64,000 bases of DNA from an uncultured Pelagibacteraceae bacterium (GCA_902595125.1 CACJOY010000001.1:248001-312000); one strand, 5' to 3'; positions 10,466 through 38,574 are shown, counted from the first letter of the stretch. The notes: generated by a model not told the origin, from the letters alone. A program made the numbers and translations.

Positions 10466-13400
10466 CTATTGATTTACTTGAGTTTCTGATGGTTCAATTT
10501 GTTCCTGATCAGATAAGAATTTATTGTCATCATCAAGAGCTTTTTTGTTCCATTTATTTTTAATATTACCGGTTCCAGCGGGAACTAATCTTCCAACAAT
10601 AACATTTTCTTTTAATCCATTTAAAGGATCAACCTTACCTTTTATTGCTGCATCTGTTAAAACTCTTGTAGTTTCTTGGAAGGAAGCTGCAGAAATAAAA
10701 GACTCTGTCTGGAGTGATGCCTTAGTTATCCCCATTAAAACTCTTTCACCAGTTGCTAAAGTTTTGCCCTCAGATTTAAGTTTTTCATTAACATTTTCAA
10801 ATTTAATTCTATCTATTACTTCACCTGGTAAATAAGTTGAGTCTCCAGTGGTTTTAACTTCAACTTTTTTAAGCATTTGTCTTAAAATTGTTTCAATATG
10901 CTTATCATTAATAATTACACCTTGAAGTCTATAAACTTCTTGTACTTGATTAACAAAATATTCTGTAAGATCTTTAATCCCCATAATTCTTAAAATATCA
11001 TGAGGCAATGGTTGACCATCTAAAAGATATTCACCTTTTTTGATTCTTTCACCTTGATTAAAGTTAATATGTTTACCTTTTGGAATTAAATAATTCGATG
11101 GTTCAGATCCATCCTCTGGAACTATAGAAACTCTTTGTTTCCCCCTTACTTCTTTGCCAAAAACTACTTGTCCATCATTTTCAGCAATGATTGCACTATC
11201 CTTAGCTTTTCTTGCTTCAAATAGCTCAGCAACTCTTGGTAATCCTCCAGTAATATCTTTTGTTTTAGTTGTTTCCTTAGGTAATCTTGCAATTACATCT
11301 CCAGCATAAACTTTTTGGCCGTCTTTAATTGATAAAATTGAATCTGGAACTAAATAGTATCTAGCTTCGTTATCATCAGCTTTTTTTATTACATTTCCCT
11401 TTTCATCTCTTAAAGTAATTCTAGGTTTTAAGTCTGAACTTTTTGATTGTGCTCTCCAATCAACAACTGATTTAGATGAAATACCTGTAGCATCATCAGT
11501 GGTTTCCTGAATAGAAACACCATCAATTAAATCAACAAAACTTGCTGTGCCACTTTTTTCTGCAATTACTGGAGTTGTATAAGGGTCCCACTCACAAATT
11601 TTAGTATTTGCTTTAATTTTATCACCATTATTAAAAAATAATTTAGATCCATAAGCAACTTTATAAACTGCTATTTGAACTCCATTGTCATCTTCAATAG
11701 AAAGTTGAGTATTTCTTCCCATAACAATTAAATTTTTCTTTGAGTCTTCTAAAATATTTGAATTTAGTATCTTCAGAACTCCCTCACTTTTACTTATTAT
11801 TTGAGAGTCTTGTTTTACTGAAGCTGTACCGCCAACGTGGAATGTTCTCATAGTTAATTGAGTTCCCGGTTCTCCAATTGATTGAGCTGAAATCATACCA
11901 ATTGCTTCTCCAACATGAACCATTTTTCCTCTAGATAAATCTCTTCCATAACAAGTAGCACACACACCTTCTTTTGAACTACATGTCATTACTGAATAAA
12001 CTTTAATTGATTTTACTCCTGCAGCATCAATTAAATCACATCCCGCTTCATCTATCATAGTAGATTTTTTAATAACTATTTCACCAGTTATAGGATTTTT
12101 TACCTCTGCTGCAGTAACTCTACCTAATGATCTTTCAGATAAGCTTACAACAACGTTACCACCTTCTAGTATTTCAGATAATTCAATAAAACCAGGATTG
12201 TCACAATTTTTTTTTGTAATTGTTAAATCTTGGGCAACATCACAAAGTCTTCTTGTTAAATATCCAGAACTTGCAGTTTTAAGGGCTGTATCAGCTAATC
12301 CTTTTCTAGCACCGTGTGTAGAATTAAAATATTCGAGAGCAGTCAATCCTTCTTTAAAATTCGATGTAATTGGACTTTCAATAATTTCTCCAGATGGTTT
12401 AGCTATTAAACCCCTCATTCCAGCTAATTGTTTCATCTGTGCCGCAGAACCTCTTGCTCCACTGTCTGCCATCATGAAAACTGAATTAATTTTTAATCCT
12501 TCAGAAGTTTTCTCAGTAGCTGAAATACCCTTCATCATCTCACCAGCTACTTTATCTGTACACTTAGACCAAGCATCGACTACTTTGTTGTATTTTTCAC
12601 CTCTAGTAATTAATCCTTCTGCATATTGTGTTTCATAATCTGCAATTAATTTTTTTGTGTCATCAATTAATTGTGTTTTACTCTCTGGTATTACTAAATC
12701 ATCTTTACCAAATGAAATACCAGCCTTAAATGCATGTTTAAAACCTAAATCTTTTAACTTATCACAGAAAATAACTGTAGTTTTTTGACCACAAAATCTA
12801 AATACAATATCAATTACTTCTGAAACAACCTTTTTAGGTAACAATCTATCGACTAATGAAAATTTTATATCTTTATTTTTTGGTAAAAGATTTGCTAATA
12901 AAAATCTTCCAGCTGTCGATGTATATTTTTCATATTTTTTATTACCTTTTTCATCAATAGTTTCAAACCTTGAAATTATTGTACTATGAACTTTAATTTG
13001 ACCTGATGATAATGCAAATTCTATTTGATCTGCATCAACAAAATATCCAGCTGACTTATCTGTTAATGGTTCTTGAGATAAATAATAAATACCTAAAATC
13101 ATATCCTGACTTGGAACAATAATTGGTTTACCGTTTGAAGGTGATAAAATATTATTTGTTGAAAGCATCAAGATTCTTGCTTCTAGTTGTGCCTCTAAAC
13201 TTAATGGAACGTGAACTGCCATTTGGTCGCCATCAAAATCAGCATTAAAGGCTGCACAAGTTAAAGGGTGCAATTCAATAGCATCTCCTTCAATTAATTT
13301 TGGTTCAAAAGCTTGTACACCAAGTCTATGAAGTGTAGGAGCTCTGTTTAGTAATACAGGGTGTTCTCTAACAATTAGTTCAAGCGCATCCCAAACTGCA

Positions 13401-31333: not shown

Positions 31334-32104
31334 TTAAGAAGTTTCCCTTTTTAATTGTTCCAACTTAATCTTTTTTTGAAGACTTTTATTTTGATCATAT
31401 AAAAGATTAAATTTTATTTTTTTATTTGTTTTCACGGTTATATTTTTTGCATTTCTAACTTCAATATTATCGGCAACAGCACTAATAGGTCTTTTTAAAG
31501 GATTCAAATTTTTTATGTTAATTTTACTTTTATCACTTATTATTTTTCCTTTCCATCTACGTGGTCTAAATGGACTTATCGGTGATATAGATAATTGTTT
31601 AGAATTTAAACTCAAAATTGGTCCATGAACAGAGAGATTATAAGCAGTACTCCCAGCAGGAGTTGAAACAAGAACTCCATCAGAAACAAGTTTTTTAATT
31701 ATTTTTTTTGAACCACTAGAAATAGATAGAGATGCTGCTTGCCTACTTTGTCTTAAAATAGAAACCTCATTAATTGCTAAATATTTTTTAATTTGTTTAT
31801 TCTTATTTTTAACAGACATTTCTAATGGAGAAATTGAAACCATTTTGGCTTTATTTAAATTTTTTATAAAGTTTTTTAATGAAAATTTATTCATCAAAAA
31901 ACCGTAATTTCCAGAATTGATGCCATAGAAAATTCTATTTGATTTTCTATTTTTTTTTAATGTCTGAAGCATAAAGCCATCGCCTCCAATTACTACAGTT
32001 ATATTTGATTTTATAATATGGTTTTTTTTTAATAATCTTAATAACCGTAACTTAATATTTAATGATTTTTTATTTAAGTCAGAAATAATTTGTACTTTTT
32101 TCAT
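31334..32104 (-). CDS. nadK: NAD kinase
   Basis: NAD kinase phosphorylates NAD to NADP. I start it at ATG 32102-32104 (MKKVQIISDLNKKS, 256 residues). The longer frame simply reads through the tRNA-Leu sequence. Family motifs are present: VVIGGDGFMLQTL near residue 36, YGINSGNYGFLMN near 60, LVSTPAGSTAYNLSVHGPIL near 150 and ISPFRPRRW. The start codon lies only 3 bases after the tRNA-Leu CCA end, so tRNA processing would leave a practically leaderless mRNA. Confidence 0.93.
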   Translation of the reverse strand: MKKVQIISDLNKKSLNIKLRLLRLLKKNHIIKSNITVVIGGDGFMLQTLKKNRKSNRIFYGINSGNYGFLMNKFSLKNFIKNLNKAKMVSISPLEMSVKNKNKQIKKYLAINEVSILRQSRQAASLSISSGSKKIIKKLVSDGVLVSTPAGSTAYNLSVHGPILSLNSKQLSISPISPFRPRRWKGKIISDKSKINIKNLNPLKRPISAVADNIEVRNAKNITVKTNKKIKFNLLYDQNKSLQKKIKLEQLKRETS

Positions 32105-32107
32105 ATG

Positions 32108-32193
32108 TGGTGCCCTCGGCCAGACTCGAACTGGCACTCCGCAAGCGGCAAGGATTTTAAGTCCTTTGTGTCTACCAATTTCACCACGAGGGC
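32108..32193 (-). tRNA. tRNA-Leu (TAA anticodon)
   Basis: This is an 86-base class II tRNA on the minus strand. The acceptor GCCCTCG pairs perfectly with CGAGGGC, the D-loop region is TTGGTAGACAC, the anticodon loop CTTAAAA gives TAA, the long variable arm is TGCCGCTTGCGGAGT-like, the discriminator is A, and CCA is encoded. It is the intact member of a local set: a deleted copy lies at 33763-33809 and a decayed half at about 35333-35368. It reads into nadK. Confidence 0.97.
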
Positions 32194-32259
32194 ATTAATG
32201 AATTTCATGAGTATTTATGCTAATATTTATAATTGAACAAGATGAATAAGTAAATTTTT
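32155..32259. repeat. 105-bp direct repeat, copy A (tRNA-Leu 5' half, leader and promoter)
   Basis: This block matches 33771-33875 over 105 bases with two adjacent mismatches (at 32243-32244, TG here versus CT there). It covers the anticodon loop through the 5' end of tRNA-Leu plus 66 bases upstream, including the promoter. The repeat boundary falls exactly in the anticodon loop. Confidence 0.9.
32226..32254 (-). promoter_or_regulatory. Promoter for tRNA-Leu-nadK
   Basis: On the minus strand TTTACT (32249-32254) and TATAAA (32226-32231) are spaced by 17 bases, about 33 bases before the tRNA 5' end. The same elements are retained in the duplicate block (33842-33870), where both sequence differences fall in the spacer. 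Confidence 0.55.
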
Positions 32260-32260
32260 T

Positions 32261-32362
32261 TTATTTTATCTCTCTATGTGCTGGTCTTGTGCTGGTTGTC
32301 CCATAATCTATAGGATAATATTTCAACAAACCCAGAACCACGATCCCTAAAAGTTTTTTCAT
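32261..32362 (-). CDS. 33-codon ORF, truncated relative of the exported-protein start
   Basis: The ATG follows the previous stop codon with no gap (TAAATG). The first 13 codons read MKKLLGIVVLGLL, matching the start of the neighbouring exported protein except at one residue; at DNA level 37 of 39 bases match. After that the frame leaves the signal peptide and ends GTTSTRPAHREIK, then stop. Either it is a small expressed peptide or the decayed remains of a gene whose body was lost. A copy of the DNA encoding its tail also lies upstream of the next gene, favouring remains of a duplication. Confidence 0.4.
   Translation of the reverse strand: MKKLLGIVVLGLLKYYPIDYGTTSTRPAHREIK
32277..32296. repeat. 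20-bp repeat TGTGCTGG module, copy 1
   Basis: TGTGCTGGTCTTGTGCTGGT is repeated exactly at 33624-33643. The flanks are also similar (TTTTATCT a few bases before both). On the minus strand it encodes the TSTRPAH tail of the 33-codon ORF. Within the 20-mer, GTGCTGGT occurs twice. Confidence 0.85.
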
Positions 32363-33580
32363 TTATTTTGCTCCAGCTCTGCATTTTTGAAATTCTCTAT
32401 AAAGATCAGGATGAGTAAAATTACCTTTCTTTTTTCTACAAAAAACATCGTAAGGATCCCATGAATCTTTTGCTGTGGGTGTAACAAAAACACTCTTAGC
32501 TAAATCAGGGCATCCTTCAATATCATGTCTATAATAAGTATCATTTTTACTATCGATTGATGATTTGACGATATTTACTGCAAGAACATCAGAACCTTTT
32601 ACGTGTTTACCTTTATAAGTTCTTTTTCCACACGCATAAGCAGCGCCCTGTGCGTGAAACAATTCATGTAGAATAACTAAATCCCTACTTTGTTGTGAGT
32701 AAGTTTTAACTGCAGGTGTATAGATTACCATATAGGGTACACCACCTTCACCACCGTCGCTATTTCCATGTTTGGTTTTAAAACCTGTAAATGTTGCATA
32801 AACTTTTTTAGGATTATCAAAACCTTTTTCTCTGAGATAGCGATAAATTAAGCCATTCGGGTAATCAGGTACATCTAATTGTTTTTTTGAAACATTCATT
32901 CTCACAAAGGTTACATCCAGTTTTCCTTCTTTAGTCATATCTAATTTAAACTGCTGCCCTATGCCATTTGATTTTTTATTTCTTGCAGACATTTTTAAAA
33001 ATTTACGATTTACACTATTTACCCTTTTTTCAATCCAGCCACTAATATCTAATTCTGTATCTTCACCGTCAAATGATAATAAATAGATAAAATGAATTTG
33101 ATGATCGTCATTTACATCAGGCTGGTCTTCAAAAAATCTTCCTGGTCTTTTATCTAATTGTGCTTGCTTTTCTTCTAACGCTTTTGCTTCTGCTATTTTA
33201 GTTTTTGCAATGATTGATGCTTTATCCTTGTCGTATTTCCAAACAATTTCATCATTAACTGCATACAGATAACAGTCTTTATCTGGTGTATATTTCTTAG
33301 AATTTTTCATGCATTGTTTGTATGTTTTCTTATGAAGTTTTTCTAAATTCTTACCTTTATTGGCTGCAAAGGAATATTTGCCATAATCACAACTAGCATA
33401 GAGAACGCCAGTTTGATTTTTTTTTATTAATTCTTTTAAATGTTTTTTTATAAGTTTTTTGTGTTGATATTTAAGCGCTTCACACCCTGCAATAGACGTA
33501 AATCCAGGCTCATTAACACCTGCATAAGCCTTAACACTGAACAACAAACCCAGAACTATGATCCCTAAAAGTTTTTTCAT
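32363..33580 (-). CDS. Exported protein with HExxHxxG zinc-peptidase motif
   Basis: This is a 405-residue protein of no family I can name. A clear signal peptide (MKKLLGIIVLGLLFSVKAYA, about 20 residues, AYA cleavage site) sends it to the periplasm or outside. A helical, Lys/Ala-rich stretch lies near residue 120. HELFHAQG at 305-312 fits the zinc-metallopeptidase motif HExxHxxG. The third ligand position of metzincins (His or Asp three residues after the Gly) is Tyr here. Several Cys in the C-terminal third could form disulphides. It lies between the intact and the deleted tRNA-Leu copies. Confidence 0.65.
   Translation of the reverse strand: MKKLLGIIVLGLLFSVKAYAGVNEPGFTSIAGCEALKYQHKKLIKKHLKELIKKNQTGVLYASCDYGKYSFAANKGKNLEKLHKKTYKQCMKNSKKYTPDKDCYLYAVNDEIVWKYDKDKASIIAKTKIAEAKALEEKQAQLDKRPGRFFEDQPDVNDDHQIHFIYLLSFDGEDTELDISGWIEKRVNSVNRKFLKMSARNKKSNGIGQQFKLDMTKEGKLDVTFVRMNVSKKQLDVPDYPNGLIYRYLREKGFDNPKKVYATFTGFKTKHGNSDGGEGGVPYMVIYTPAVKTYSQQSRDLVILHELFHAQGAAYACGKRTYKGKHVKGSDVLAVNIVKSSIDSKNDTYYRHDIEGCPDLAKSVFVTPTAKDSWDPYDVFCRKKKGNFTHPDLYREFQKCRAGAK
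33542..33580. repeat. 39-bp repeat covering the signal-peptide start, copy 2
   Basis: This block, the first 13 codons of the HExxH protein, matches 32324-32362 in 37 of 39 bases. Such nucleotide-level identity of a signal-peptide start, with unrelated downstream sequence, points to recent duplication or a start-cassette exchange. Confidence 0.85.
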
Positions 33581-33762
33581 CTTATAAGTTTTACCAAGTA
33601 TAATAATTTTATCTATCTGTATGTGTGCTGGTCTTGTGCTGGTTTACACAAATTAATTAACCCTTATTTTCTAATCTTAATTGAAAGATAAATTAAAGTT
33701 ATGTGATTTTATAGGAGGTTTTAAACTACGTTAGACTACCACGGACTGACTCATTTGTGAAT

Positions 33763-33809
33763 CCCTCGGCTTTTAAGTCCTTTGTGTCTACCAATTTCAC
33801 CACGAGGGC
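33763..33809 (-). pseudogene. tRNA-Leu(TAA) pseudogene with internal deletion
   Basis: Read on the plus strand, CCCTCGGC (33763-33770) matches the acceptor end of the intact tRNA-Leu (32113-32120). It is followed directly by the anticodon loop through the 5' end (33771-33809, identical to 32155-32193). The 34 bases between, holding the T-arm, variable arm and part of the anticodon stem, are missing, so no functional tRNA can form. The 66 bases upstream, including promoter elements, are retained. Confidence 0.85.
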
Positions 33810-33875
33810 ATTAATGAATTTCATGAGTATTTATGCTAATATTTATAATTGAACAAGACTAATAAGTAAATTTTT
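33771..33875. repeat. 105-bp direct repeat, copy B
   Basis: This is the partner of 32155-32259, offset by 1616 bases in the same orientation and identical except for two adjacent bases. It lies upstream of the HExxH gene in the direction of transcription, so the copied promoter could drive that gene. Confidence 0.9.
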
Positions 33876-33885
33876 AATCTTAATC

Positions 33886-34077
33886 TTAATCTTTATCTTT
33901 ATTTTGAACCATGCCTTTTAATGCGCCCAGATACCAAATTAATGAAGTGATTGAAAATATCAATAAACCATGAGTAGATCTAATTGTGTCAAATGTATGC
34001 AAACCCATTTCTTGGGTTATTTGAGTTAAAGTTGAAAAAATTAAAATCAAACATGATATAATCATAACAAGTTTCAT
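33886..34077 (-). CDS. Small two-helix membrane protein, unknown
   Basis: This 63-residue protein has a hydrophobic N-terminal helix (about residues 3-17), a polar stretch QITQEMGLHTFDTIRSTHG and a second helix (about 38-54), ending in a charged tail. A strong Shine-Dalgarno (GGGGGGAAA) precedes the ATG, stronger than those of most core genes here, which supports expression. It lies between the deleted tRNA-Leu copy and the lipoprotein gene. No family is recognised. Confidence 0.5.
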   Translation of the reverse strand: MKLVMIISCLILIFSTLTQITQEMGLHTFDTIRSTHGLLIFSITSLIWYLGALKGMVQNKDKD

Positions 34078-34114
34078 TATTTCCCCCCTATTGTTTTATT
34101 GATTTTTAAATTAA

Positions 34115-34708
34115 TTAACTATCACTATCATCATCACTATCATCTGTACCGTCAGCATCAGTATCATCATCAGCAGTAACTGTTGTTGTGGTTGTCGAAG
34201 TCACACCATCTGTATTTGTTGTAGCCGTCGCATCTGTATCACCAACAGTTATGGTTGTTTTATTAGCCTGTATGGTTGCTAAAGAAATTACTGTATCTAA
34301 AGTTTTATTGAAAAGATCCGTAGCTTCTTTTTTACTTAAATTATAATTTACTGCAAATTCACAAGTTCTAAAAAATAATTCTCTAGACATTAAAACAGTT
34401 GGAGTTCTTCCTACCATTTCTGACTCGCTACTTCCCATTGTTGCTTCTTCAGAACCAATGGCAAGGCCCAGACCTTCCTCTGTAGTCGCAGAAAAAGTTG
34501 CATCTGGTTGTGGCATTGTACAGGTGTGAATGGCTGTTCCATTTTTATCAGTCATCCTAATAAAACTTTGACCTGCGGTTTGTTGAACAAACGTTTGGTC
34601 TTTTATTAAATGCCCTGTTGGCTTTGGCCTTTCCAATGTTGTACAATTGGTTAGTAAAGTGAATACAAATAAAGATATTAAAATGCTAAATATTTTTTTG
34701 TTGTTCAT
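34115..34708 (-). CDS. Putative lipoprotein with Thr/Asp-rich tail
   Basis: This 197-residue protein begins with a signal sequence ending LTNC at Cys22, an imperfect lipobox (Asn before the Cys). The middle (about residues 30-140) is a mixed globular region with two further Cys. The last 45 residues are a low-complexity tail, first Thr-rich (TSTTTTTVTADDD) and then Asp/Ser-rich, which looks extracellular or calcium-prone. AGGGAAG precedes the start. The family is unknown; the location in the tRNA-Leu island suggests an accessory surface protein. Confidence 0.6.
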   Translation of the reverse strand: MNNKKIFSILISLFVFTLLTNCTTLERPKPTGHLIKDQTFVQQTAGQSFIRMTDKNGTAIHTCTMPQPDATFSATTEEGLGLAIGSEEATMGSSESEMVGRTPTVLMSRELFFRTCEFAVNYNLSKKEATDLFNKTLDTVISLATIQANKTTITVGDTDATATTNTDGVTSTTTTTVTADDDTDADGTDDSDDDSDS

Positions 34709-34716
34709 TATCTTCC

Positions 34717-34764
34717 CTAACCAGCTATTTCAAGTCTTCTGTATGTTTGAATTTAAGTCCATCT
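34717..34764 (-). pseudogene. Decayed copy of the 3' end of the next exported-protein gene
   Basis: On the minus strand these bases read DGLKFKHTEDLK then stop, aligning with GPIKFNHREGFKLAGWN at the end of the gene at 34780-35289, with a 3-base deletion and an early stop. About three quarters of bases match by eye. It looks like the tail of a lost tandem copy. The stretch is short, so chance cannot be fully excluded. Confidence 0.4.
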
Positions 34765-34779
34765 TCGTTAAATTAAAAA

Positions 34780-35289
34780 TTAATTCCAACCCGCTAATTT
34801 AAAACCTTCTCGGTGATTAAATTTAATTGGTCCTTCTGAAAAACTGAACGTACCTACCATATGAAGTTGACCTTTTTTAAGATCTTGTGATGTAATTTTT
34901 AATCTAAATAACAAATCAGCTGAAAATCCTGGTGTAATATAATCTTCTATATCTCCTATAGTATCACTTTCAGAACAACCAAAATATTCAGGACGGCTAG
35001 ATGTGAATTCTCTTGTGATTAAATTTAAACCTACATCATAATTTCCAACAGCACTTAAGTGAATGTCACATTCATATTGAATATAAAAAAGTTTCTTTTT
35101 TTTATCTTTAAAAGAAAGTTTTATACTTGCAGCTCCATCCATTGTCTTAGTGCTAACATTAGCTTTTCCCTCAGCTTTTATGTAATATTCACTATTGTTA
35201 GGAAATTTAATTGAAAAACTATCTGCATACGCAGTTGATATAAAAGAACTTAAAATTAGTGTGAATAAAAATGTTTTTAAATATTTCAT
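34780..35289 (-). CDS. Exported protein of unknown function
   Basis: The 169 residues begin with a clear signal peptide of about 22 residues ending AYA. The mature part is rich in beta-type sequence and Lys, with a Cys pair around residues 74 and 99 (YECDIHLS and FGCSESD). No family is recognised. A strong Shine-Dalgarno (GAGGGG) stands 4 bases before the ATG. A degenerate copy of its 3' end follows at 34717-34764, so the gene was once duplicated. It is bounded upstream by a tRNA-Leu remnant. Confidence 0.6.
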   Translation of the reverse strand: MKYLKTFLFTLILSSFISTAYADSFSIKFPNNSEYYIKAEGKANVSTKTMDGAASIKLSFKDKKKKLFYIQYECDIHLSAVGNYDVGLNLITREFTSSRPEYFGCSESDTIGDIEDYITPGFSADLLFRLKITSQDLKKGQLHMVGTFSFSEGPIKFNHREGFKLAGWN

Positions 35290-35332
35290 TGACCCCTCTT
35301 AGATTAAATTTAATAAAAAAATAATAAAGCAT

Positions 35333-35368
35333 TTTAAGACCCTTGTGTCTACCAATTTTACTAGGACA
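35333..35368 (-). pseudogene. Decayed tRNA-Leu 5'-half remnant
   Basis: The plus strand reads TTTTAAGACCCTTGTGTCTA then CCAATTTTACTAGGAC. This matches the anticodon loop (TAA anticodon), anticodon stem and D-arm of the intact tRNA-Leu with a few substitutions, and the acceptor part is degraded. The break again falls at the anticodon loop. This third copy lies about 1.56 kb beyond the second. Confidence 0.7.
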
Positions 35369-35369
35369 C

Positions 35370-35765
35370 TTAAAATTTAGTTGGTTTCCAATCTTTTGGA
35401 GCTATTTCAAGATCACTAAACTCAAAAGCAGGAGCTACTGTACATCCAATAAGGCAATATAAACCTGTAGGTTTCATAGAAAACCAAGTGTTTTTTTCTA
35501 TATTAAATATGAAATTATTTTTGGAACCAATTTCGTTTGTTTTAAATTCATTACCATCTTTTGATGTAAATATTTTTAATGGACTTCCAGAATAGAAATG
35601 TAAAGTTTCGTTTTTAGTTATTCTGTGCCAATGAGATCTTTGATGTTCCTCTAATAAAAAATAAATATGAGTTATATCTTTATTCTTAAATACTTCTACA
35701 TAATATCCACCCTCGGGATGTGGCGCCATTTTGTGATGTTCAATTAAGGTTTTGATAATACTCAT
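35370..35765 (-). CDS. DUF985 cupin-fold protein
   Basis: The 131-residue protein matches the DUF985 (cupin_5) family along its whole length: HPEGGYYVEVF near residue 17, IYFLLEEHQRSHWHRI near 35, ETLHFYSGSPLKIF near 54 and IGCTVAPAFEFSDLEI near 107. The His and Glu of the cupin metal/ligand site are present. The biochemical function of the family is unsettled. The stop lies next to the tRNA-Leu remnant, so this gene marks the right edge of that island. Confidence 0.85.
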   Translation of the reverse strand: MSIIKTLIEHHKMAPHPEGGYYVEVFKNKDITHIYFLLEEHQRSHWHRITKNETLHFYSGSPLKIFTSKDGNEFKTNEIGSKNNFIFNIEKNTWFSMKPTGLYCLIGCTVAPAFEFSDLEIAPKDWKPTKF

Positions 35766-35841
35766 TTTTCTTAAATTAAATAATTTAAATTTTTGTAATT
35801 TTAATAATTTATTTTATAAAATTAAAAAATAAAACACAAAA

Positions 35842-36534
35842 TCAAAATTTATATATCTTTTTAAGTATTCTTTTTTTTTTCTTGTCTTTCTCTCTAGCGA
35901 AGACATCGAACAGCATGATCTTTAAAATATCTTTGTAATGTTGGTAGTTTTTTTGATTCCCAAAAGAGGCAAATTCAAAATTTGACATTAAAATTTCAGA
36001 TTCTTCATTAAAAGATGATATGTTTAAATAAGTAATTCCTTTAGAAATCTTACTTTTTAATATTATGAAATTTATATCTTTTTCTTTAATTGGCCATATT
36101 TTATCTGGGAGATTTTGGCTTAATTTTTTTGCTATTCCAATGTTATCTTCAAATACTATTTGGGAATCACTTTCTATTTGATCCTCTAATTTCAAATTTT
36201 TTTGTATAACTTCTAAATAAAATTTCGGCTTATTAATTATAAGGTTATTAATAATTCTAAGATTACCAAATAAAAAAGACTTTATATCAACATTTATTGA
36301 TATACTTTTTGTTTCAAAAATTAAATCGTAATAAAATGGATTAGTATTTTTAATTTTGAGATTTTTAATAGTAATTATATTTGGATAGGTAATTTGAAAA
36401 TCTTCAAACAATATATCTTTTTCAACCCATTTCGAGAATTTATTTTTAAAATAAAATTCAATTATTTTTTGATTAAACAAAACAATCAAAATAATTATAA
36501 ATGTAAAGAAAAATATTGTTAATTTTTTTTTCAT
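35842..36534 (-). CDS. AsmA-like membrane-anchored protein
   Basis: The 230-residue protein has one N-terminal membrane helix (about residues 4-22) and a periplasmic part. The stretch IITIKNLKIKNTNPFYY, followed by beta segments around residues 70-105 (SISINVDIKSFLFGN and INKPKFYLEV), resembles the N-terminus of AsmA/YdbH-type proteins linked to envelope lipid transport. It is far shorter than typical AsmA proteins. The gene stands alone with AT-rich gaps on both sides. Family membership is tentative. Confidence 0.5.
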   Translation of the reverse strand: MKKKLTIFFFTFIIILIVLFNQKIIEFYFKNKFSKWVEKDILFEDFQITYPNIITIKNLKIKNTNPFYYDLIFETKSISINVDIKSFLFGNLRIINNLIINKPKFYLEVIQKNLKLEDQIESDSQIVFEDNIGIAKKLSQNLPDKIWPIKEKDINFIILKSKISKGITYLNISSFNEESEILMSNFEFASFGNQKNYQHYKDILKIMLFDVFAREKDKKKKRILKKIYKF

Positions 36535-36614
36535 TATTTAGAATAATCAAAAATTTTTACTTAAAGAAATTGATTTATACTTTCGTTAATCTAATTTTGT
36601 AAATAAATACATCT

Positions 36615-37409
36615 TTATTCTATAAAATGTATCTTGATATCTTTATTTCTTTTTGAATTAGGAAAGTCTAAATTTTTAATAGGATATTCTTTATTATTTT
36701 TTAAAATATAGGTATGCAAGCTTACTCTCGAAAAAGTTAGCTCAATTGCTTCAGGAAACTGATTTGTTGGATTAACTGAATAGTTGTTAATATGAATATG
36801 TGCTAATTTAAGGTCAGAGTTTAATTTATCAATAAAAGTATAAATTTTTTCAAAATTTTTACTCACACCATGAAATTCAATAACAATACCTTGAATTTTA
36901 TCTTTATGTGATATGATATCATCAATAATTTCATACTCATAATTTTCAATATCTATTTTTAAAAATATTTTCGCATTAGATTCTGTATAGTTATTAATTA
37001 TGCTATTAAGACAAATTGACCCTTCCTTTTTACCGATTTTTTTTAAAAAAAATTGGTTATTCTTATTGAATTTAAAAAATAATAAAAAATCTATAAATTG
37101 AAACATTTTATAAATTTTTCTAGGTTTAAATATTTTTAGTTGTAAAAATTTAATTAAATCTTTTTTAAATTTAGATCTCCAAAAATTTTTGTTTAATGAA
37201 TAATCAAAAGCAAGAATCTTAGCTCTTGAATTTTTTGCAAAATCTTTTTCAAAATCCCAATTATCACTAATCCCCATTGAAATTAATAAGTTTGACGAAC
37301 TAACAGTTTCTTTAGGAACAACATATCCACCATCATCAATTGAACCTAGTCTAAATAGTTCAGAATTATCAATAAAAATTGGTTTTAATTTTTGTGTAAA
37401 TTCAACCAT
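36615..37409 (-). CDS. FkbM-like methyltransferase
   Basis: The 264 residues contain DDGGYVVP near residue 25, LISMGISDNWDFEKDFA near 43, a Lys/Phe-rich insert around 95-130, and FLKIDIENYEYEIIDDI near 150, the post-core motif of FkbM-family SAM-dependent methyltransferases. These usually modify glycans or small molecules. The SAM-binding loop is less canonical than in the gene at 60658. It follows the GGCT-like gene in a chain of minus-strand genes. Confidence 0.65.
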   Translation of the reverse strand: MVEFTQKLKPIFIDNSELFRLGSIDDGGYVVPKETVSSSNLLISMGISDNWDFEKDFAKNSRAKILAFDYSLNKNFWRSKFKKDLIKFLQLKIFKPRKIYKMFQFIDFLLFFKFNKNNQFFLKKIGKKEGSICLNSIINNYTESNAKIFLKIDIENYEYEIIDDIISHKDKIQGIVIEFHGVSKNFEKIYTFIDKLNSDLKLAHIHINNYSVNPTNQFPEAIELTFSRVSLHTYILKNNKEYPIKNLDFPNSKRNKDIKIHFIE

Positions 37410-37422
37410 ATGAAATAATATA

Positions 37423-37824
37423 CTATCCTTGTAAGGCTTTTATAAGATACTTTTTTTCAAGATTACAATCTTTATATCCACGTTTAATAACATTTAAGTA
37501 TCTTTCAGTTGGAAATTTAAAAGTTGTTTTCTTTACCATTGTATATGTCATAACTTTTTTTCCATAATAATAAAAAAAATATTTCTTATATAAATTAGGA
37601 AAATCTTCATAAACATCTAATTTTTTTTCATCACTTTTTGATATTTCAAATAGTCCTCCAGGGACAATGAAATTTTTTTTTGGCTCTATGTCAGCCGCTC
37701 GATATTTACTCCTAAAAGTTAATCTAAAATTTTTAAGATTAATCTTCTTAAGAAAAATACTATCTTTACATCTTTTTTTCATTTGAAAATGATGAAGATT
37801 ACTGCCGTAAGCAAAATAAAGCAT
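37423..37824 (-). CDS. Gamma-glutamylcyclotransferase-like (GGCT fold) protein
   Basis: The 133-residue protein opens MLYFAYGSNL, the substrate-loop motif of the GGCT/AIG2 superfamily. It continues with PGGLFEISKSDEKKLDVYED, where the Glu in VYED is the expected catalytic acid. Members cleave gamma-glutamyl amines or peptides to 5-oxoproline. It starts next to the cinA-like stop with no gap. The actual substrate cannot be read from sequence. Confidence 0.8.
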   Translation of the reverse strand: MLYFAYGSNLHHFQMKKRCKDSIFLKKINLKNFRLTFRSKYRAADIEPKKNFIVPGGLFEISKSDEKKLDVYEDFPNLYKKYFFYYYGKKVMTYTMVKKTTFKFPTERYLNVIKRGYKDCNLEKKYLIKALQG

Positions 37825-38574
37825 TTATCGATCTACAATTTCAATATTTTTTTCTTTTACAAATTTTAAAACTTGAGAAATGCAATTGTCAATTTTAGAT
37901 TGATTTTCTGATCGCAAAACTATTGAAACACCTAATTTACCTGCATGAAAAAAAGGGTAGCTTCCTATCTCTACGTCACTATTTTGATCTTGAACTTTTG
38001 TTAATGAATTAGCAATTTCACTTTCGACTGTTTTTAAACTTATAGTATGACTTAAAACTGGCTCACCACCTACTATCTTATTTTTTAAACTTCCTAACAT
38101 CGATTTTAGAATTGAAGGAACCCCCGGAAGACAGAAAACATTTTCAACACTAAAACCTGGAGCTCCACTGGTTGGATTTAAAATAAGTTCTGCATTCTCT
38201 GGCATCTTTACCATTTTTTGTCTGCCTTCATTAAATTCACCTGGTTTATAATATGCCTCTAAAATTTTAAACGCCTCTTTATGTATTTCATATTTTAAAC
38301 CGAAAGCTTTTGAAACTGACTGTGCAGTAATATCATCATGGGTCGGGCCTATACCACCAGTTGTAAACACGTAATTATTTTCTTTTCTTAAGACATTCAA
38401 TGTGTCAACTATAATTTTTTCTATATCAGGGATAACTCTTACTTCACTTACTATAACTCCAATTGAATTAAGCCATGTTGCTAGAGTGCTTGTATTGGTA
38501 TCTTGAGTTCTCCCAGAAAGAATTTCATTTCCAACAATTAATATAGCAGCATTTACTTTTGTGTTTTTTGTCAT
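37825..38574 (-). CDS. CinA N-terminal-domain (molybdopterin-binding fold) protein
   Basis: The 249-residue protein corresponds to the MoaB/Mog-fold half of CinA, with ILIVGNEILSGRTQDTN near residue 12, FTTGGIGPTHDDITAQ near 70 and FCLPGVPSILKSML near 145. The C-terminal nicotinamide-nucleotide amidase domain is absent. Such proteins are linked to ADP-ribose pyrophosphatase activity and nucleotide repair. Its ATG stands only 20 bases from the divergent sfsA start. Confidence 0.85.
   Translation of the reverse strand: MTKNTKVNAAILIVGNEILSGRTQDTNTSTLATWLNSIGVIVSEVRVIPDIEKIIVDTLNVLRKENNYVFTTGGIGPTHDDITAQSVSKAFGLKYEIHKEAFKILEAYYKPGEFNEGRQKMVKMPENAELILNPTSGAPGFSVENVFCLPGVPSILKSMLGSLKNKIVGGEPVLSHTISLKTVESEIANSLTKVQDQNSDVEIGSYPFFHAGKLGVSIVLRSENQSKIDNCISQVLKFVKEKNIEIVDR

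Follow-up and report, generated by a model that had tools for sequence, protein, structure and literature searches.

In a 64,000-nucleotide stretch of the genome of an uncultured Pelagibacteraceae bacterium (GCA_902595125.1, CACJOY010000001.1:248001-312000; hereafter the window), the tRNA-Leu(UAA) gene contains an inserted, integrase-less element of 1616 bp, which we call element 1. With a probability of about 0.78, we regard element 1 as a non-autonomous site-specific cassette that has lambda-type arm sites and was integrated in trans by the integrase of a satellite. Sequence comparison with relatives shows how such elements are built, that their ends match, that sites are polymorphic for insertions, that near-identical copies occur in divergent genomes and that some elements resemble a helper. 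The host genome is 1.18 Mb long and 97.7% complete. It was compared with 399 genomes of the genus Pelagibacter, many of them incomplete single-cell or metagenome assemblies, so that counts of absence are soft. Mapping of tRNA copies in more than 80 tRNA-Leu loci fetched from relatives yielded 74 elements between successive copies and 76 secondary copies.

tRNA-Leu(UAA) copies and element ends

Element 1 is bounded by two copies of the tRNA-Leu(UAA) 5' half, each with its 66-nt leader, and a third copy lies farther out. The first-pass annotation had described this series and its spacing, and both are real, with offsets of 1616 and ~1561. Over 108 nt, copies 1 and 2 are 97% identical (32152-32259 and 33768-33875); measured from the loop (32155 and 33771), this corresponds to the 105-nt stretch reported before, which has two differences and extends to 66 nt upstream of the tRNA. 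Copy 3 is strongly decayed, matching at 89% over 35 nt. Both outer copies are better than chance: a 30-nt probe of the tRNA 5' half, allowing up to 3 mismatches, matched only at copies 1 and 2, where 0 matches were expected, and copy 3 scores E=2.3e-6 when the whole genome is searched. As had been noticed, the anticodon loop is the exact point at which identity sets in, and the same is true of the 76 secondary copies in the mapped loci: all 39 positions from the loop's first base onward agree with the tRNA at 0.95 or above, and agreement is 0.22 at the base just before. The statement that copy 2 lacks 34 internal bases was a misreading, because the 8 nt preceding its loop, CCCTCGGC, belong to the inserted element, whose outer end they form, and vary from relative to relative (CCCTCGGC in 29 of the 76 secondary copies, CCTATGTT, TCAAACTA and so on in the others).

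Across the genus, a tRNA probe matched 287 of the 399 genomes, and a second match was present in ~139 of these (a hand count from a table with at most two candidates scored per genome; a second match is not a cassette in every case). Secondary copies repeatedly started at query position 63-66, which is the anticodon loop. A right-end pattern of element 1 was matched in 85 stretches of named genomes, and every one of them was titled Pelagibacteraceae, Pelagibacterales or Candidatus (Ca.) Pelagibacter. The site has a conserved frame, with nadK and tRNA-Leu on one side, p133-CinA-SfsA-map on the other, and an island of ~1 kb to more than 15 kb between them. Mean mismatches of the copies rise with distance from the tRNA (0.02, 0.81 and 1.58), a gradient expected if new insertions enter at the tRNA. 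One element of 267 bp (genome G117, L186) consists of both ends and no cargo.

Both ends of element 1 bear one 11-bp-spaced repeat (GTGCTGGTCTTGTGCTGG), which the first-pass annotation had overlooked. Just within the ends, the 20-nt sequence GTGCTGGTCTTGTGCTGGTT is identical at 32278-32297 and 33625-33644, with 0 such matches expected. We scored such arms as a short unit repeated at an 11-bp offset and sought them at both ends of each element. The repeats matched between an element's two ends in 58 of the 74 elements, a total reached by none of 20,000 permutations, and the result was upheld with 35 elements of unrelated cargo (again 0/20,000). None of 73 control segments taken inside element bodies reached the threshold. 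The unit itself varies between elements, with 33 scored spellings, some of which are shifted readings of one another. The phage attachment sites (attP) of lambda-type integrases carry arm-type sites bound by the integrase, and the paired end repeats are what the arm-type sites of a lambda-like attP would look like.

The conserved left end, an arm pair followed by GTTRTCCTATAAAATCC, was also found next to tRNA-Ser(UGA) and, in what is apparently a third attachment site, where a small conserved gene starts; a reversed control of the pattern gave 0 matches in 201 genomes. The left end of element 1 has no match to the GTTRTCCTATAAAATCC extension within 2 mismatches and is therefore a variant in that part. 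The small gene encodes 75 aa in L336 and adjoins an aldolase-like gene. Left ends at this gene were seen near position 1500 in L308, L309, L314, L318, L321, L325, L335 and L336, near 1104 in L315 and near 386 in L324, and cassette left ends built alike stand at tRNA-Ser(UGA) in L310, L316, L317 and L320.

Mobility and a candidate helper

Several pairs of relatives represent occupied and empty sites. The sequence beyond copy 2 abuts the intact tRNA of the partner genome in the pair G022/G050 (94.7% over 1500 nt) and in the pairs G300/G216 and G300/G041 (99% over 1500 nt). Three different cassettes, in G060, G360 and G379, precede a common flank, and in nine other genomes (G017, G051, G056, G043, G173, G334, G151, G035 and G248) this flank lies directly against the tRNA. 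An integrase-bearing element in G160 and the cassettes of G004 and G394 have one common junction flank at 92-95%. An integrase-less element of 2654 bp is 95.4-99.5% identical in G041, G216, G300 and G379, the nadK flanks of which are only 76-80% identical; in three arrays it is the first element and in a fourth the second, and it has no integrase neighbour. Mobility is indicated by these empty sites, by identical junctions that hold different cargo and by the presence of a near-identical element in divergent genomes. The locus alignment proposed with the first-pass annotation revealed empty sites, other cargo and further tRNA remnants, and not the same genes in the same order in all relatives.

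No integrase is present in element 1, as had been noted, and none of the G160 family was found in the window's genome. The 551-aa integrase of G160 has relatives in 6 of the 399 genomes. The G160 element is 8.8 kb long and encodes this integrase, an AEP primase/DUF5906 protein and a RusA-like resolvase; like a satellite it combines integrase and replication genes, and no capsid gene was recognised among the 8-10 open reading frames (ORFs) scanned. A satellite-like element of this type is the likely helper, since it shares with element 1 the left arm pair (GTGCTGG), a nearly identical core-proximal right end and the insertion junction. The left leaders of the two differ despite the shared right end. 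A 7.8-kb contig from a viral collection, L089, has a 99-nt terminal repeat as well as arm repeats and an att region related to those of G160, and it is probably a circular form of a G160-related element. Another relative of this integrase, in G366, sits between tRNA-Ser(UGA) and a partial repeat of that tRNA (L167:1455-1544 and ~10512-10553).

In one contrast between these integrases, the differences are concentrated near the N-terminus. The L119 and L110 integrases, which go with different arms, are 95% identical except in an N-terminal region at 65%: 411 of 432 residues are the same after residue 113, and only 22 of 34 in residues 80-113 (p=3.9e-7). Between L119 and L089, which have the same arms, 31 of these 34 residues are identical. 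This pattern is consistent with recognition of the arms by residues 80-113. The L089 integrase had no match in 50,697 phage records. Close relatives of the G160 integrase were not found in a scan of viral contigs, and a scan using an alignment of six integrases returned four matches, all already known. Two further candidates were set aside. A GTGCTGG match in viral contig L084 was treated as chance, this contig being GC-rich and actinobacterial-looking, and Charybdis elements (PMC12324425) differ in size, genes and host.

We infer from these observations that the arms bind an integrase, that it acts in trans and that cassettes have a route of transfer between cells. In a circular form of element 1, the ends would make up a lambda-type attP whose core comprises the 7-bp anticodon-loop overlap, the tRNA 5' half and the leader, with paired arm-type sites flanking this core at distances of ~120 bp and ~145 bp. 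Recombination of attP with the tRNA gene (attB) would be carried out by a tyrosine integrase acting in trans, most likely that of a satellite-like element such as the one in G160. The cassette would bring in a new 5' half and leader, so that the tRNA is restored, while the old 5' half would be pushed outward and the newest insertions would lie nearest the tRNA. Arm spelling would determine which integrase moves which cassette, and would diversify together with the N-terminal domain of the integrase. We see about an even chance that this reflects a general cassette system of SAR11, in which mobility groups are defined by arm spelling, each matched to the arm-binding domain of an integrase, with one end design used at several sites (tRNA-Leu, tRNA-Ser and the start of a small protein gene) and rare satellite integrases serving a large shared gene pool.

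A number of points weigh against the proposed mechanism. By the score used, 16 of the 74 elements have no matched arms. The right arm repeats of integrase-bearing elements are spaced differently and lie within the integrase gene; that of G160 consists of two GTGCTGG units at 25-bp spacing, so that this element fails the 11-bp arm score. Only one carrier of a GTGCTGG-type integrase was found, and the co-variation of arms and N-terminal domain comes from one contrast. No empty-site relative of the window itself was found, and a circular form of an integrase-less cassette was not found in the viral contigs scanned with one right-end pattern. All of the evidence is comparative.

Alternative explanations

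One other possibility, which we consider unlikely, is that the cassettes are dead remnants comparable to cis-mobilizable elements (CIMEs), once autonomous, now without their integrase, and either static or moving passively with their neighbours. CIMEs are a known class (PMC5704250), and element 1 likewise retains the attachment sites attL and attR and has no integration and transfer genes. Some copies and ends are decayed, such as copy 3 of the window, and end sequences are common to integrase-bearing elements. However, matched arm pairs remain intact in most of the elements, the 2654-bp element occurs as one unit at varied array positions in divergent genomes, and genomes with second tRNA copies far outnumber integrase carriers.

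It is similarly improbable that the integrase comes from temperate pelagiphages using the same tRNA rather than from satellite-like elements. The cultured Pelagibacter phage HTVC105P (MH598804.1) uses the same tRNA half as the cassettes, with an exact 39-nt copy beside its integrase gene (L306:2501-2539); only a minority of the 38 viral stretches containing this half belong to the satellite type, and links between pelagiphages and tRNA-Leu have been published (PMC3861242). HTVC105P nevertheless has no paired arm repeat of the cassette type, and its 297-aa integrase shows only a short SAM-type N-terminal domain in Pfam.

Slightly less probable is a shuffling of cassettes by homologous recombination through the ~105-nt tRNA and leader repeats and the flanking core genes, with integrase rarely mattering. 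These repeats could provide homology, and the variable columns of the 2654-bp family are concentrated at its ends, where arm spelling varies too, and within a single internal patch. Such shuffling would leave unexplained both the arm match between an element's two ends and the exact loop insertions before an otherwise unchanged flank.

A host-encoded core recombinase acting in an integron-like manner is very improbable. The only PF00589 match of the genome is a Xer-like tyrosine recombinase of 317 aa (L001:1132-2085), with a similar match in most relatives searched. This protein has only a SAM-like N-terminal domain and is far below the cut-off for integron integrases, of which none was found in the window's genome, and one conserved enzyme would not explain many pairwise-matched arm spellings. 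Tandem duplication, which the first-pass annotation had left open beside site-specific integration, has next to no chance of being correct: it would suit the regular ~1.6-kb spacing and direct orientation, but the cargo is not duplicated and copies elsewhere are 0.27 to 15 kb apart, and integration is decisively favoured because dozens of genomes share a junction at the loop where identity stops, empty sites exist, cargo differs and end motifs are paired.

Cargo, neighbouring features and related systems

Coordinates of element 1 and its surroundings are given in Table 1. The one ORF of note in element 1 encodes a predicted exported protein of 405 aa, which its HELFH motif suggests is probably a metallopeptidase. 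It had no Pfam family above the cut-off and no PHROG match, and element 1 contains no phage structural genes. An AlphaFold model made without an alignment reached a pLDDT (predicted local distance difference test) of 36 and was not used. Relatives of this protein were found in 63 of 300 genus genomes; that of G102 has no tRNA half nearby, and G007 has a 79% identical copy adjoining a tRNA half. A 39-nt signal-peptide gene start (MKKLLGI...LGLL) occurs twice in element 1, at 32324-32362 and 33542-33580, and similar gene starts lie near the arms in G199, G015, G016 and G042, as if varied cargo had been joined to one common start.

Table 1. Features of the tRNA-Leu(UAA) island in the window.
Feature	Position	Strand	Basis
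nadK, conserved left neighbour of the site	31334-32105	-	Pfam, locus comparison
Intact tRNA-Leu(UAA), attachment gene, restored by the inserted element	32108-32193	-	ARAGORN; sole intact match found in own genome
Element 1, 1616-bp integrase-less cassette inserted in the tRNA	32155-33770		Copy mapping, end motifs
TTTTAAG, entire 7-nt anticodon loop; putative crossover (overlap) region	32155-32161		Fold; identity of 76 secondary copies starts at first base
66-nt leader upstream of the tRNA, part of element 1	32194-32259	-	Repeat match; conserved in relatives' cassettes
Left putative arm-type site, TGTGCTGG repeated at 11-bp offset	32277-32297	+	Repeat search, arm score
Second copy of cargo gene start (MKKLLGIVVLGLL), opens short reading frame into left arm	32324-32362	-	95% match to 33542-33580
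Cargo, 405-aa predicted exported protein, HExxH (HELFH) motif	32363-33580	-	ORF call, Pfam scan, relatives search
Right putative arm-type site, TGTGCTGG pair as at left	33624-33644	+	Repeat search, arm score
Core-proximal right end with GACT repeats, nearly identical to right end of G160 integrase-bearing element	33724-33770	+	Comparison with G160
Copy 2, displaced tRNA 5' half (33771-33809) and leader	33771-33875	-	Repeat match
Older, decayed segment between copies 2 and 3	33771-35331		No arm pair seen at ends
63-aa membrane protein (older segment)	33886-34077	-	ORF call; no Pfam match
197-aa lipoprotein-like protein (older segment)	34115-34708	-	ORF call; no Pfam match
169-aa predicted exported protein (older segment)	34780-35289	-	ORF call; no Pfam match above cut-off
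Copy 3, decayed tRNA 5' half	~35327-35366	-	Repeat match; genome-wide E=2.3e-6
133-aa protein (p133) and CinA-like protein, conserved right boundary of the island	37423-38574	-	Locus comparison

The segment between copies 2 and 3 is read as an older decayed layer. Beyond copy 3, up to p133-CinA (35370-37409), lie genes for a cupin, a 230-aa protein and an FkbM-type methyltransferase, which were unmatched in the other loci fetched here. The leader presumably holds the tRNA promoter; a sigma-70 scan of its 66 nt found no promoter.

Among all cassettes, 205 of 238 cargo ORFs are oriented toward the tRNA, and in most cassettes the cargo lists contain no relic genes in common. The first-pass annotation had suggested a slot for surface proteins. 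This holds insofar as N-termini resembling signal peptides or transmembrane (TM) segments are enriched, occurring in 53 of 100 cargo clusters and in 10 of 61 genes of the window by a crude hydrophobicity heuristic (p=2.8e-6). It is too narrow in that genes for restriction-modification, pilin-like proteins, proteases and metabolism are also among the cargo, with Pfam or PADLOC matches to pilin-type N-methylation motifs, N6 and C5 methylases, type I specificity subunits, MmeI-type enzymes, and trypsin-like and caspase-like domains.

Integron cassettes form arrays of small cassettes and are moved by a tyrosine recombinase that they do not encode. The SAR11 arrays are like them in both respects, their proposed recombinase being encoded elsewhere, and unlike them in inserting at a tRNA anticodon loop, in a genome without an integron integrase. 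In gene content the helper-like elements resemble phage satellites of the PICI (phage-inducible chromosomal island) type, pairing an integrase with a primase-helicase.

Closer parallels come from other streamlined pelagic hosts. As far as the accessible parts of these accounts go, Ca. Actinomarinales (PMC7771536), for which transfer between genera is reported, and the tRNA-Lys flexible genomic island fGI-2 of Methylopumilus (PMC10872708) also have, in additive flexible genomic islands, small cassettes with partial tRNA copies at their bounds and variable cargo, whereas arm sites, matching ends and a helper are described only for the SAR11 cassettes. The Methylopumilus repeats correspond to the tRNA 3' end, and SAR11 cassettes carry the 5' half and leader. 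Tycheposons, which are known from Prochlorococcus and for which the same source gives an account in Methylophilaceae (PMC10872708), are likewise cargo-bearing and tRNA-integrated in streamlined marine hosts, but they are 4-200 kb long and encode their own tyrosine recombinase; element 1 and most other SAR11 elements have none and are smaller. CIMEs and tandem accretion, as in relatives of ICESt1 (PMC5704250) and the ssrA islands of Dehalococcoides (PMC3146451), similarly involve att sites without a recombinase in tandem with integrase-bearing elements, and movement jointly with adjacent islands has been proposed for them (PMC5704250, PMC3146451). Unlike CIMEs, integrase-less elements are the large majority in SAR11, are mostly 1-6 kb long, come with matched arms of many spellings and are found as individual units in divergent genomes; the ssrA islands also differ in using a serine recombinase (PMC3146451). 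Our search of the openly accessible literature turned up no report of this system in SAR11. While tRNA-bounded cassettes are already known, the paired variable arms, the candidate helper and the use of several sites appear to be new.

SAR11 bacteria rank among Earth's most abundant cells, and they have few known mobile elements and a large flexible gene pool. If the proposed mechanism is correct, it would provide a concrete and testable route by which individual genes and small operons are exchanged, restriction systems and exported proteins among them. Cassettes could then be recognised by their matched arm pairs and sorted into mobility groups from sequence alone, and the co-variation of arms and integrases would be a natural data set on how the DNA specificity of integrases changes. 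Some of the most abundant bacteria of the ocean would then swap genes by means of integrases borrowed from rarer satellite-like elements.

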